Shown: piece by piece, positions 46,431 to 49,760 of the stretch
Layout: the number at the start of each line of letters is the position of its first letter
Numbering within the stretch: the stretch's first letter is position 1
Assembly: GCF_007748035.1 (NCBI RefSeq)
Contig: NZ_CP036278.1
Span: 3,100,001-3,164,000 of the forward strand
DNA length: 64,000 nucleotides
Origin: Aeoliella mucimassa
Lineage (GTDB): Bacteria > Planctomycetota > Planctomycetia > Pirellulales > Lacipirellulaceae
Direction of reading: 5' to 3'
Notes under the pieces: model-generated
The model's input: only the letters and a program-made list of their open reading frames with translations
What the model was told of the DNA's origin: nothing
The model's database searches: none
Position numbers and translations under genes: made by a program

Positions 46431-47246
46431 ATGTTCGAAGGAAAACGCGGCCTGATCACCGGCGTCTTTAACAAGCAATCCATTGCTTGGGCGATTGCCG
46501 AACGCATTATGCAGAATGGCGGCGTTTGTGGTTTTTCGTACATGCCCGACAAGCCAGATGATGAGCGCAAGAAGAACCTGAATCGCATTCAAAAGCTCAC
46601 CGATGGGCTTGAGAATGTCGCCTTCCTGCAGCCGATGGATGCGACGAAGGACGATCAGATCGAAGCAGTGATGGACACCTGCAAAGAGAAATTCGGTCAA
46701 CTTGATTTCGTGCTTCATTCGATTGCTTATGCTCCTCCAGAGGATCTCAAAGGTTCGACCATCGACACCAGCCGCGAAGGCTTCAAGATGGCGATGGAGA
46801 TCAGTGCTTATAGTTTGCTCGCGATTTCAAAGGCGGCTCAGCCATTGCTCAAGGAAGGCTCGACCATCCTGACTCTCACCTACTTCGGCGGTGAGAAGGC
46901 GGTGCCGGGCTACAACATCATGGGCGTCTGCAAGGCGGCTTTGGATTCGATTGTTAAGTACCTGGCTTTCGATTTGGGTGCGGATGGTGTTCGTGTAAAT
47001 GCACTAAGCGCCGGGCCGATCCAGACCGTTAGCGGCCGGGGTGCCGGGGTCGACGAAATGCTCGGCCTGTACGAGGGAGTCGCTCCCTTAGGGCGGAACG
47101 TCACTCACGACGAGACCGGCAAAAGCGGTGCGTTCCTACTCTCGGAGATGTCGAGCGGCATCACCGGCGAAATCCTGCATCTCGATAGCGGATACAATAT
47201 GATGGGTTCGCCCGGTCGATTGCTCGATCGGTTTCGCAAGCAATAA
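46431..47246 (+). CDS. fabI: Enoyl-ACP reductase (NADH)
   Basis: 271 residues. Final reduction step of fatty acid elongation. Start ATG 46431 (MFEGKRGLITGVFNKQS) has GAGGAAGTGAA directly upstream. Nucleotide site and SIAWAIAERI are typical, and the active-site Tyr and Lys are in GYNIMGVCKAAL. The C-terminus ITGEILHLDSGYNMMG is the family ending. Its stop immediately abuts that of the convergent regulator gene. Confidence 0.95.
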   Translation: MFEGKRGLITGVFNKQSIAWAIAERIMQNGGVCGFSYMPDKPDDERKKNLNRIQKLTDGLENVAFLQPMDATKDDQIEAVMDTCKEKFGQLDFVLHSIAYAPPEDLKGSTIDTSREGFKMAMEISAYSLLAISKAAQPLLKEGSTILTLTYFGGEKAVPGYNIMGVCKAALDSIVKYLAFDLGADGVRVNALSAGPIQTVSGRGAGVDEMLGLYEGVAPLGRNVTHDETGKSGAFLLSEMSSGITGEILHLDSGYNMMGSPGRLLDRFRKQ

Positions 47247-48122
47247 CTAAGCCTGCTTCAGCTCGGCTTGCAGTTTTGCCGCAGTACATGCCAGATCAGT
47301 CATCGATGTGCTGTACCGCGTACAAGATAAGTTGGGTTGTAACTCAACCGGAATGGCCTGACCGCCGACGATCCAGCGGGTAATCTCCGCAGTGGGATCA
47401 AGCAGCTTTTCATTTGCTTGCTCGATGAACCTTTCGGGGTGATCGATGTGGGTCAGGCTGAGTAGTGATAGTTGCGGAGCGTGATGCTCTACCGCATCGC
47501 GAATCTCTTCCAGCGGAAGTGCGATACCGAGGATTTTGGCGTCCCAGCCTTTCTCTCGCAGCACGAGTTCCACGAGTCGGGCGGGGAGTTCCGAGTGATC
47601 CCCCGAGGGGGTCGTGATCAATGCCTTAGGGGCACCGGCTATTGCAAGCGGTAACATGCGACGCAAGTTGTGCAGTGTCGCGACCGCGATCTCGCACGCC
47701 CGACGTTCTTGATGCACGCTTAGTTCGCCCCGCTCCCAGCGATGGCCAAGCTCGTGGAACACCGGTGCGATCACGAAATCGGCCAGCTCCACGATGGAAT
47801 GCCCTGCGTGGTACAGCGGTTCGATAATCGCCTGACTGGCTCCTTCGTCGCCAGCGGTCAGGGCTTCTAGCAGCGGCTCGTGAACATCCTTCAGCTCGCA
47901 CTTGGCACTCTTCGCAGCCAGGCCGAGCACTTCAGGGCGGATGATGCGGTAACCCTGTTCGCGGGCGAGTCGCACCACGGCCGAGAGGGCCAGTTTGCGG
48001 TGGCCACCTGCGGTTTTTACGGCTTCGACTTTGCCGCAATCCACCCATCGTTTGACCGAAGATTCACCAACGCCAAGCGCTCGGGCGACTTGCTTGGGCG
48101 TAAATTTTCGTTCCATCGGCAT
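47247..48122 (-). CDS. MerR-type regulator with B12-binding-like domain (CarH-like), ligand residues missing
   Basis: 291 residues. An N-terminal MerR HTH (FTPKQVARALGVGESSVKRW), a helical bundle and a Rossmann-like cobalamin domain, as in the light sensors CarH/LitR. CarH binds adenosylcobalamin through Trp, Glu-His and an axial His in GExH. Here the first motif reads WERGELSVHQER (W129 kept, His of EH changed to Arg140) and the second reads TTPSGDHSELP (axial position Ser177 by alignment). So cobalamin binding is doubtful. Likely a DNA-binding repressor with a changed signal. It converges with fabI and is downstream of the aldehyde dehydrogenase gene. Confidence 0.88.
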   Translation of the reverse strand: MPMERKFTPKQVARALGVGESSVKRWVDCGKVEAVKTAGGHRKLALSAVVRLAREQGYRIIRPEVLGLAAKSAKCELKDVHEPLLEALTAGDEGASQAIIEPLYHAGHSIVELADFVIAPVFHELGHRWERGELSVHQERRACEIAVATLHNLRRMLPLAIAGAPKALITTPSGDHSELPARLVELVLREKGWDAKILGIALPLEEIRDAVEHHAPQLSLLSLTHIDHPERFIEQANEKLLDPTAEITRWIVGGQAIPVELQPNLSCTRYSTSMTDLACTAAKLQAELKQA

Positions 48123-48240
48123 GGCAGTACTTCAACTCGCTTGTCGATGCGGTTCGATCTTCAGAACCGCAGGTTTGGCAGGTGTCTACCTATTCTTCTA
48201 TCGAGTGCTGACGGTCGATTTATTGTCCTTTTATGAATCA

Positions 48241-48274
48241 GATGCCTCCCCCCTCTTGGGAGGGGAGAGGCGTC
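48241..48274 (-). terminator. Hairpin downstream of the aldehyde dehydrogenase gene
   Basis: GC-rich inverted repeat just past the stop codon (arms around GCCTCCCCCCTC and its near-complement, one internal mismatch, 4-base loop, outer pairs extended). No T-run follows, so it may stop RNA decay or act with Rho rather than as an intrinsic terminator. Confidence 0.4.
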
Positions 48275-48284
48275 TGGAGAAGTC

Positions 48285-49760
48285 CTAATCTAGCGACATG
48301 GTCACGGTCTTCACCTCAGTGTAGGCTGCCAGTCCGGCTTCGCCCAACTCTCGGCCAATTCCGCTTTGCTTAAAGCCGCCAAACGGAGCACCGGCATCAA
48401 AAACATCGTAACAATTCACCCAAACGGTTCCGGCTCGAACCTGGTCGGCGAACCGGTGGGCCTTCGCAACGTCGCGAGTCCAAACCGCCGCGGCCAGCCC
48501 GAAGTTCGTGTTGTTCGCCCGCCGTACCAGCTCGTCGACGTCACTGAACTTCAGCACACTGAGCACCGGACCAAAAATTTCGTCGCGGGCAATCCGCATG
48601 TCGTCGGTCACGCCAGCAAATAAGGTGGGCTCCACGTAGTAACCGCGGTCGCCCAGGCGGTTGCCGCCGGTCACGCAGCTGGCTCCATCTTGTTTGCCGT
48701 AGTCGACGTACTGCAGCACCTTATCGAGCTGCGCCTGATCGACCTGCGGACCTTGCCGAGTTGCAGGATCGAACGGGTCGCCGACCACGTGCTCGCGGTT
48801 GCGGCTGGCAATACGATCGACCACTTCGTCGTACACGCTGTCTTCCACAAACAATCGGCTACCAGCGCAGCAACATTGCCCTTGATTGAAATAAAGCGCG
48901 AAGTGGGCACCAGCGATGGCCGCGTCGAGATCCGCATCGGCGAAGATCACGTTCGGGCTTTTGCCGCCGAGTTCGAAGGTGAGCCGCTTCATCGTTTCGG
49001 TCGCCGCGCGCTGAATGATCTTGGCCGTGGCCAACTCGCCGGTGAAGGCAATCTTGTCGACGCCGGGATGTTCGACCAAGGCGGCGCCGGCCGTGGGACC
49101 GTAGCCCGGCACCACATTAATCACCCCGTCGGGGATACCCGCCTGCTGGGCGAGGTGGGCCATTCGCAAACAAGTAAGCGGAGTTTGCTCGGCTGGCTTC
49201 ATCACAATCGTGCAACCGGCCGCGAGGGCGGGGCCCCACTTCCAAGCGGCCATCAGTGCGGGGAAATTCCAAGGGATAATCTGCCCGACCACGCCGACCG
49301 GCTCACGCTTGGTGTAGCAGAAGTAGTCGCCGCGGATGGGGATCGTCGCCCCGTGGATCTTGTCGGCCCAGCCGGCGTAGTAACGCAGGCAGTCGACCAC
49401 CAGCGGCAGGTCGGCGTTGCGGGCGTCGCTAATCGGTTTGCCATTGTCGAGCGTTTCGAGCGCGGCGAGTTCGTCGATTTCGCTCTCGATCAAATCAGCC
49501 AGCCGATTCATCAACAGGCTGCGATCACGGGCGTCGAGCTTCGACCACTCTCCGCCGTCGAACTGCGCGCGGGCGGCATCCACCGCCGCGTCGATGTCGG
49601 CCTTGTCGCCTTCGGCCACTTGGCAGATCACTTCCTCGGTCGCCGGGTTAATGGTATCGAAAGTCTTTCCGCTCACCGACGAGGTCCACTTACCGCCGAT
49701 AAAGCACTCGGTATGGCGGATTGGGGGAGCCGATAAGACTTGGGGAACAACCGTAGCCAT
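48285..49760 (-). CDS. NAD(P)-dependent aldehyde dehydrogenase
   Basis: 491 residues, oxidises an aldehyde to the acid. Start ATG 49760 ([13 protein letters not shown]) is fixed by a perfect AGGAGGT seven bases upstream; the open frame further up is non-coding. Visible: cofactor-site [20 protein letters not shown]-type segment, general-base Glu in [12 protein letters not shown], catalytic Cys in [11 protein letters not shown], and the conserved [12 protein letters not shown]. The usual FTGSTEVG reads FTGELATAK. Substrate unknown; the family includes betaine- and fatty-aldehyde dehydrogenases. It has a long structured upstream region with a promoter-like pair. Confidence 0.93.

Follow-up and report, generated by a model that had tools for sequence, protein, structure and literature searches.

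A planctomycete regulator of LitR/CarH fold, probably independent of B12, from a family with cobalamin-pocket residues altered most likely in steps

The 64,000-nucleotide stretch of DNA analysed here (hereafter the window) encodes, on its reverse strand, a regulator that is probably a B12-independent protein of the LitR/CarH fold, that would control a neighbouring aldehyde dehydrogenase gene, and that comes from a planctomycete family in which the cobalamin-holding residues were most likely altered in steps; the majority of this family, which carries a tyrosine in the column of the cobalt-ligating histidine (the Tyr-type members), would consist of light-stress regulators. The account that we favour runs as follows. 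A B12-photoreceptor-like ancestor would have exchanged its cobalt-ligating His for Tyr, after which the Glu-His pair of the upper pocket would have become Glu-Arg in most members; the Tyr column would have turned to Ser or Ala in the clade that holds the window protein (the Ser/Ala clade). The Tyr-type majority would govern a light/photo-oxidative-stress regulon via head-to-tail binding on 9-bp direct repeats, and the Ser/Ala clade would represent a paralogous branch outside the Tyr-type operator and gene cluster. The window protein would bind DNA with its winged helix and would use its CBD fold as an effector or oligomerisation domain that does not ligate AdoCbl; the dehydrogenase would be its most likely target, probably a repressed one, and the effector domain would answer either a ligand other than B12 or a partner protein.

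The regulator and its domains

The features of the regulator, all on the reverse strand, are given below in window coordinates.

47247..48122, reverse strand: CarH/LitR-like regulator, 291 aa (open reading frame list, domain search, alignment and AlphaFold); start at ATG 48122, or at ATG 48116
47955..48104, reverse strand: BldC/MerR-like winged helix, HTH_17, aa 7-56 (Pfam/NCBIfam)
47685..47882, reverse strand: four-helix cap domain, B12-binding_2, aa 81-146 (Pfam)
47358..47627, reverse strand: Rossmann-like B12-binding domain, aa 166-255 (Pfam)
47736..47738, reverse strand: codon of W129 (TtCarH W131), Trp in 99/99 homologues
47703..47708, reverse strand: codons of E139-R140 (TtCarH E141-H142), Arg in 98/99 homologues
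47592..47597, reverse strand: codons of H176-S177, with S177 in the column of the cobalt-ligating His (TtCarH H177; alignment)

All three domains (HTH_17, B12-binding_2 and B12-binding) score above the Pfam gathering cut-offs. With the NCBIfam CarH model (NF052513) the protein scores 55.1 bits, far below the cut-off of 400, which is passed by none of the 294 genomes of the phylum sample nor by the Thermus control, and the N-terminus reaches 36 bits with the BldC model (NF033787; cut-off 77). The nearest solved relatives are CtMerR of Chloracidobacterium (8jbs, E 1.9e-34) and CarH of T. thermophilus. An AlphaFold2 model built from a 28-sequence alignment has a mean pLDDT of 92.9, and structure alignment of its CBD yields CtMerR 8jbs as a match (Z 25.8 over 216 residues), next to photocobilins (Z 24-25), the SCHIC domain of AppA (Z 20.9 at 12% identity) and CarH (Z at most 20.6). 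The likeness to CtMerR (8jbs/8jbt, PMC11796333) encompasses, besides the CBD, the domain order and the KRW recognition helix; the two differ in that CtMerR keeps the Trp, the Glu-His pair (EH) and the axial His and binds AdoCbl, whereas the window protein has Glu-Arg (ER) and Ser.

The cobalamin-pocket residues in the window protein and its homologues

The original prediction, namely that the Trp of the adenosyl pocket is kept while the Glu-His pair reads Glu-Arg and the axial His reads Ser, was borne out by an alignment with TtCarH and CtMerR and by a check of the codons on the forward strand: TtCarH W131, E141-H142 and axial H177 correspond to W129, E139-R140 and S177. The W-x9-EH upper-pocket motif is represented by W129 and E139, with R140 in place of the His, and the axial stretch reads G-D-H-S-E-L-P as against D/E-x-H-x2-G/P in CarH, with S177 in the ligand column; the Ser and the GG of the B12 motif are kept.

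Homologues were collected from two sources. Of 59 relatives, 34 gave a match at E 0.001, the weakest hits including some other proteins with B12 domains; a scan of named genomes added the best 80 of 341 matches, all of them planctomycete as judged by title. The residue table derived from both sources holds 109 family proteins above 300 bits, 99 of them distinct and mostly present as one copy per genome. Trp and Glu are found in all 99, and Arg replaces the His of the pair in 98, the exception being one protein with His (L023); the axial column holds Tyr in 89, Ala in six, Ser in four and His in none. Two further pocket columns are nearly or fully constant, with Cys at TtCarH S145 in 96 and Asp at E175 in 99. 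The regulator had been described as if it were a single oddity, which it is not: judged by these residues (axial His in 0/99, Arg in 98/99) the gene is part of a wider loss of B12-holding residues among planctomycetes. In the window protein the axial column is preceded by H176; across the nine Ser/Ala members this position holds Phe six times, His twice and Tyr once, and because it is Phe or Tyr in 7/9, H176 is not a conserved ligand; a role as displaced ligand seems unlikely on the same comparison.

Whether such a protein could still hold cobalamin deserves consideration. An altered B12 light or level sensor, in which cobalamin is bound His-off or base-on and W129 and E139 hold the upper group, strikes us as rather improbable. 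It would agree with the Trp and Glu found in all 99 homologues, with two B12 domains above their Pfam cut-offs, with the retained Ser and GG, and with a second B12-binding_2 match in the same genome, which implies that B12 may be used there and which lies in a 1264-aa frame that we take, by its size, to be methionine-synthase-like. Precedents for binding without the His exist as well: Mmp10 holds cobalamin with Leu322 at the lower axial position, and OHCbl was bound by HaAI-2E, a CBD in which Arg takes the place of H177 (PMC11796333). These two cases imply that the loss of the His residues does not exclude all cobalamin binding. Against an altered B12 sensor speak the Arg in 98 of 99 homologues, which is charged where the upper group of AdoCbl would lie, and the behaviour of that same HaAI-2E, the signature-less CBD in print, which took neither AdoCbl nor MeCbl (PMC11796333). 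Mmp10 was also considered as a precedent for Tyr as a cobalt ligand (Tyr115); this was ruled out, as Tyr115 ligates an iron-sulfur cluster and it is Leu322 that lies under the cobalt.

According to PMC11796333 four residues are key to AdoCbl binding, i.e. W131, E141, H142 and H177, and of these the equivalents of H142 and H177 are gone from the window protein, which lends indirect support to the earlier expectation that it would not be a B12 light sensor of the usual kind. As read from the sequence, the case that the loss of both His residues makes against AdoCbl ligation appears strong but not final.

Living intermediates and the probable order of the changes

Within the sample of 294 genomes the family was matched (E 1e-30) in 56 and the CarH model (E 1e-20) in 45. 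Residues were read for 30 family loci of the 66 matches listed, one of which is the window itself, and for 12 CarH-model loci of the 50 listed. The latter are all W-EH-H (12/12). The 29 other family loci comprise W-ER-Y (19), W-EH-Y (seven, four of them near-copies from one genus), W-EH-H (one, L226), W-EH-S (one) and a single locus without the Trp (V, EA, Y). Living intermediates thus range over W-EH-H, W-EH-Y and W-ER-Y, with W-ER-S in the window protein. L226 could be either a survivor or a reversal.

Quick trees place the family apart from CarH and CtMerR (supports 98 and 95). In a tree of 57 rows, CarH separates, then CtMerR, after which the family splits in two: an EH group with a support of 94, the branching inside which is left open, and a group of mostly ER members (94, likewise open) that includes L023, which has EH, and the Ser/Ala clade of the window protein (100, five members). 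In a tree of 101 rows the nine Ser/Ala members group together (93) as sister to the remainder and L023 falls elsewhere, so that the two trees differ in where they put the Ser/Ala clade. Because the EH group is mostly Tyr, the simpler orders would be His-to-Tyr before EH-to-ER, and Tyr before Ser/Ala.

Gene copies add to this picture. Six genomes (G005, G018, G009, G021, G026 and G030, the last four of one genus) each have a Tyr-type and a Ser/Ala copy, and in the genome of the window and that of the other Aeoliella only a Ser/Ala copy was seen. The six second copies, which come on top of the set of 99, all have an axial Tyr; three have ER and three (in G009, G026 and G030) have EH. As these three and L023 keep EH within the Pirellulales group, the Glu-His pair must have changed more than once or reverted, and, on the residues and trees at hand, EH did not give way to ER in a single clean step. 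The three EH copies (L172, L173 and L175, in G009, G030 and G026, respectively) adjoin a sigma factor and lie some 12-14 kb from the Ser/Ala copy.

The genomic context of the Tyr-type relatives

Gene neighbourhoods were compared for 80 named loci, the longest of 12.9 kb and many of them shorter, of which 76 are Tyr-type and four Ser/Ala. Recurrent neighbours are a sigma-70 factor (26 loci, mostly divergent), an FAD amine-oxidase-like protein (24), CFA synthase (19), DUF1365 (17), ferrochelatase (16), a polyketide-cyclase/SRPBCC protein (12), a membrane protein that we take to be DUF1295-like, the NCBIfam scan having given nothing (11), epimerase/DUF1731 (8), fasciclin (7), DCC1 (7), DUF2867 (7) and class II photolyase (4). 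By raw counts, set without a random-locus baseline, at least one of these 12 families occurs in 61/76 and at least two in 40/76 Tyr-type loci; at least one beyond sigma factor and ferrochelatase occurs in 50/76, and none of the 12 in the Ser/Ala loci (0/4). Within the EH group a photolyase-family gene adjoins the regulator in 5/9 (L226, L229, L231, L232 and L234, the last four being near-copies).

Several of these functions have been connected to light elsewhere. In Vibrio cholerae, CFA synthase and an operon of a MerR gene and a photolyase gene go up under blue light (PMC5241685), and in Pseudomonas putida the photolyase and other light-induced genes are under the control of class II LitR (PMC9758184). 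On these precedents a light or photo-oxidative role is likely for the Tyr-type cluster, i.e. the cluster likely represents light/photo-oxidative-stress genes by analogy.

The context also bears on what the pocket might hold. Ferrochelatase lies directly downstream of the regulator in 13 of its 16 loci, which hints at porphyrin control. One could imagine that the pocket has swapped its cofactor for another tetrapyrrole (heme, protoporphyrin or bilin) or for a nucleotide-like ligand; Tyr, Arg and Cys would then be the new contacts in the Tyr type, and the pocket of the window protein would have been altered still more. Besides the ferrochelatase, such an exchange would fit the conservation of the new residues (Arg 98, Cys 96, Asp 99 and Tyr 89 of 99) and the fold match to SCHIC, a heme sensor by name; we nevertheless consider it improbable, since the window clade has no Tyr at the axial column and the similarity to SCHIC about equals that to CarH. 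A broader variant, which we regard as conceivable but doubtful, would make the family a new planctomycete LitR/CarH class. Its pocket would have been remodelled (His to Tyr, Glu-His to Glu-Arg, Ser to Cys) to sense some other cofactor or a photosensitiser, e.g. a porphyrin, with the light-stress regulon and the BldC-like operator of 9-bp repeats retained, and the window gene would be an offshoot redirected to the detoxification of aldehydes.

Two other observations concern the surroundings of the window gene and its genome. In G014 (L182, 6453-15977) a sigma factor gene is divergent to a family regulator with EH and an axial Ser, and the genes close by include fabI, bioA and one for an NtrC-like activator, much like the window surroundings. 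The genome of the window itself carries an FAD oxidase-DUF1365-CFA-CFA-DUF1295 run (G000:C1, ~2,976,832-2,982,165; L183, 8333-13666), and the 19.9 kb read around it held no family regulator, sigma factor or operator site with at most one mismatch; two sites with two mismatches were found, both outside the cluster.

A putative 9-bp direct-repeat operator of the Tyr-type members

Upstream of most Tyr-type regulators we found a directional 9-bp direct repeat with the consensus AAAWCGTTC. Among 99 distinct upstream regions of at most 250 bp, 46 contain TCGTTCA and 32 contain AATCGTTC, as compared to 2.3 and 0.4, respectively, in shuffles. A search of the 80 loci (831,544 bp) for WCGTTCANNWCGTTCA with at most one mismatch yielded 58 sites versus a mean of 0.6 in mononucleotide shuffles; 56 of the 58 point in the direction of the regulator, and almost every site is at most 400 bp away from a start of the regulator gene or of the gene divergent to it. 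The 54 relatives contain 55 exact matches to the operator and 16 to the reversed pattern, several of the former upstream of family genes and some in genomes without a family match (E 0.001). One exact operator, at 1534745 of contig G025:C1, lies ~270 bp before the stop-interrupted remains of what was a second family gene (1535019-1535384).

We then compared the Ser/Ala clade with the upstream regions (up to 450 bp) of 88 members outside it (87 Tyr-type and L023, two short loci being left out). On the regulator strand the best site has zero, one or two mismatches in 27, 15 and 12 regions (54/88), as compared to six with at most two mismatches on the other strand and 0/88 for the reversed pattern; half-sites 9 bp apart form 33 pairs, and 16 pairs of sites are spaced 55-60 bp apart. 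The nine Ser/Ala upstream regions contain no operator with at most two mismatches (0/9; Fisher p 0.0004, which is not a clean probability because the sequences are related), and a search for another shared 9-bp repeat in this clade returned isolated repeats, none common between genomes. At two mismatches the genome of the window shows a slight excess (408 sites versus 347 for the reversed control; exact matches, 1 versus 1). At three mismatches the window has 25 sites versus a mean of 15.85, a number reached in 3/100 shuffles; none of these sites is upstream of the regulator or the dehydrogenase, and the nearest, at 47878, lies inside the regulator gene. An imperfect 9-bp direct repeat (ACACCTGC/AAACCTGC) is present upstream of the regulator at 48168-48185, with 0.12 expected in shuffles; it is absent in Aeoliella.

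The family has an invariant K-R-W, the Arg of which presumably corresponds to Arg30 of BldC. In Streptomyces, BldC protomers sit head to tail on 9-bp direct repeats AATTXXXX(C), in which Arg30 reads the C-G pair (PMC5859096). The window protein appears to share the type of DNA-binding domain with BldC, and the AATT-XXXX-C layout matches the AAAW-CGTT-C of the Tyr type; BldC differs in having no effector domain, and no such operator was found in the window clade, which may have one of unlike sequence. By analogy to BldC, the Tyr-type members most likely control the light-stress regulon by head-to-tail binding to the 9-bp repeats.

The Ser/Ala clade and the aldehyde dehydrogenase

The genes on either side of the window regulator are the following.

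48285..49760, reverse strand: aldehyde dehydrogenase, 491 aa, proposed target; adjoins the regulator in 5/9 clade members
46431..47246, forward strand: fabI-like enoyl-ACP reductase, convergent neighbour (neighbourhood, NCBIfam)

The best NCBIfam match of the dehydrogenase is phenylacetaldehyde dehydrogenase (614.5 bits, below the cut-off). It is found beside the regulator in tandem in the window and in Aeoliella (88% identical) and in divergent orientation in G005 and G018 (75-76%) and in the metagenome-assembled genome L034 (81%), i.e. in 5/9 Ser/Ala members versus 0/76 Tyr-type loci. Among the 80 named loci it occurs in two, L033 (Aeoliella) and L034, both Ser/Ala; within the stretches read it was not found beside the Ser/Ala copy in G009, G021, G026 and G030.

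The suggestion that the regulator acts at the aldehyde dehydrogenase or at fabI holds up in part. For the dehydrogenase the conserved linkage stands, and no operator was found there; the link to fabI exists in the window and in Aeoliella, as well as in G014, where one gene intervenes, and is missing from the stretches read from G005 and G018. On the strength of its gene context the window regulator probably controls the neighbouring dehydrogenase, and the linkage, taken with the way in which CarH and LitR work, suggests repression. Between the two genes (~48244-48276) a G+C-rich inverted repeat can be discerned by eye, perhaps a terminator.

The changed ligand residues and the lack of any sign of the family operator might also be explained by a gene that is decaying without a function. 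We consider this very improbable, given that the frame is of full length, that the protein is 70% identical to its Aeoliella orthologue over 287 aa, that the dehydrogenase linkage is kept and that the helix-domain residues invariant in the family are retained.

Comparison with known systems

With CarH and class I LitR (T. thermophilus, M. xanthus and B. megaterium) the window protein shares the fold, both B12 domains behind a MerR-type helix and the Trp and Glu of the upper pocket; it differs from them by the absence of the EH His and the axial His and by the CarH-model score given above. As compared to CarH, the operator of the Tyr-type relatives consists of 9-bp CGTTCA repeats. CarA of Myxococcus xanthus had been put forward as a model, in line with the idea of a B12-independent paralogue. 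The residues show the opposite pattern: according to PMC9304148, CarA keeps the His of the B12 motif and the EH and is without the Trp, of which the window protein, with its Trp kept and its EH His and axial His lost, is the mirror image, and the CarA-like reading is rejected. Class II LitR (PplR and PmlR of Pseudomonas) offers a LitR-like regulator that makes no use of B12, and the kin of the window regulator likewise occur among light genes; as described in PMC9758184, however, class II LitR has only the four-helix domain and a LOV partner, whereas the window protein has both domains above the cut-off. Because the residue patterns of CarH, CarA and class II LitR all fail to match, the window protein is set apart from the three.

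Class II LitR with its short LOV protein (PMC9758184) and CarA with CarS (PMC9304148) do raise the alternative that the effector domain holds no ligand, serves as a platform for oligomerisation and receives its signal via a protein partner. Both are cases from the same superfamily, but they have lost a recognisable domain or the Trp, while the window protein keeps both domains and a constrained pocket, and no match to LOV, BLUF or PAS was found in the 16 neighbour families scanned; as a full explanation it seems unlikely to us. The reading that we prefer, a B12-independent LitR/CarH-fold regulator probably of the dehydrogenase, leaves room for such a partner next to a non-B12 ligand. The open-access library searched yielded no paper naming CarH together with Planctomycet, and, by title and the start of the abstract, no description of such a planctomycete regulator among the papers listed.

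Implications

The family represents a natural series that begins with a likely photoreceptor of the B12 type and ends with regulators independent of B12. Since its intermediates are alive, one can test what the loss of each contact to cobalamin entails. The defined operator, in turn, provides a predicted regulon for light-stress control in planctomycetes.
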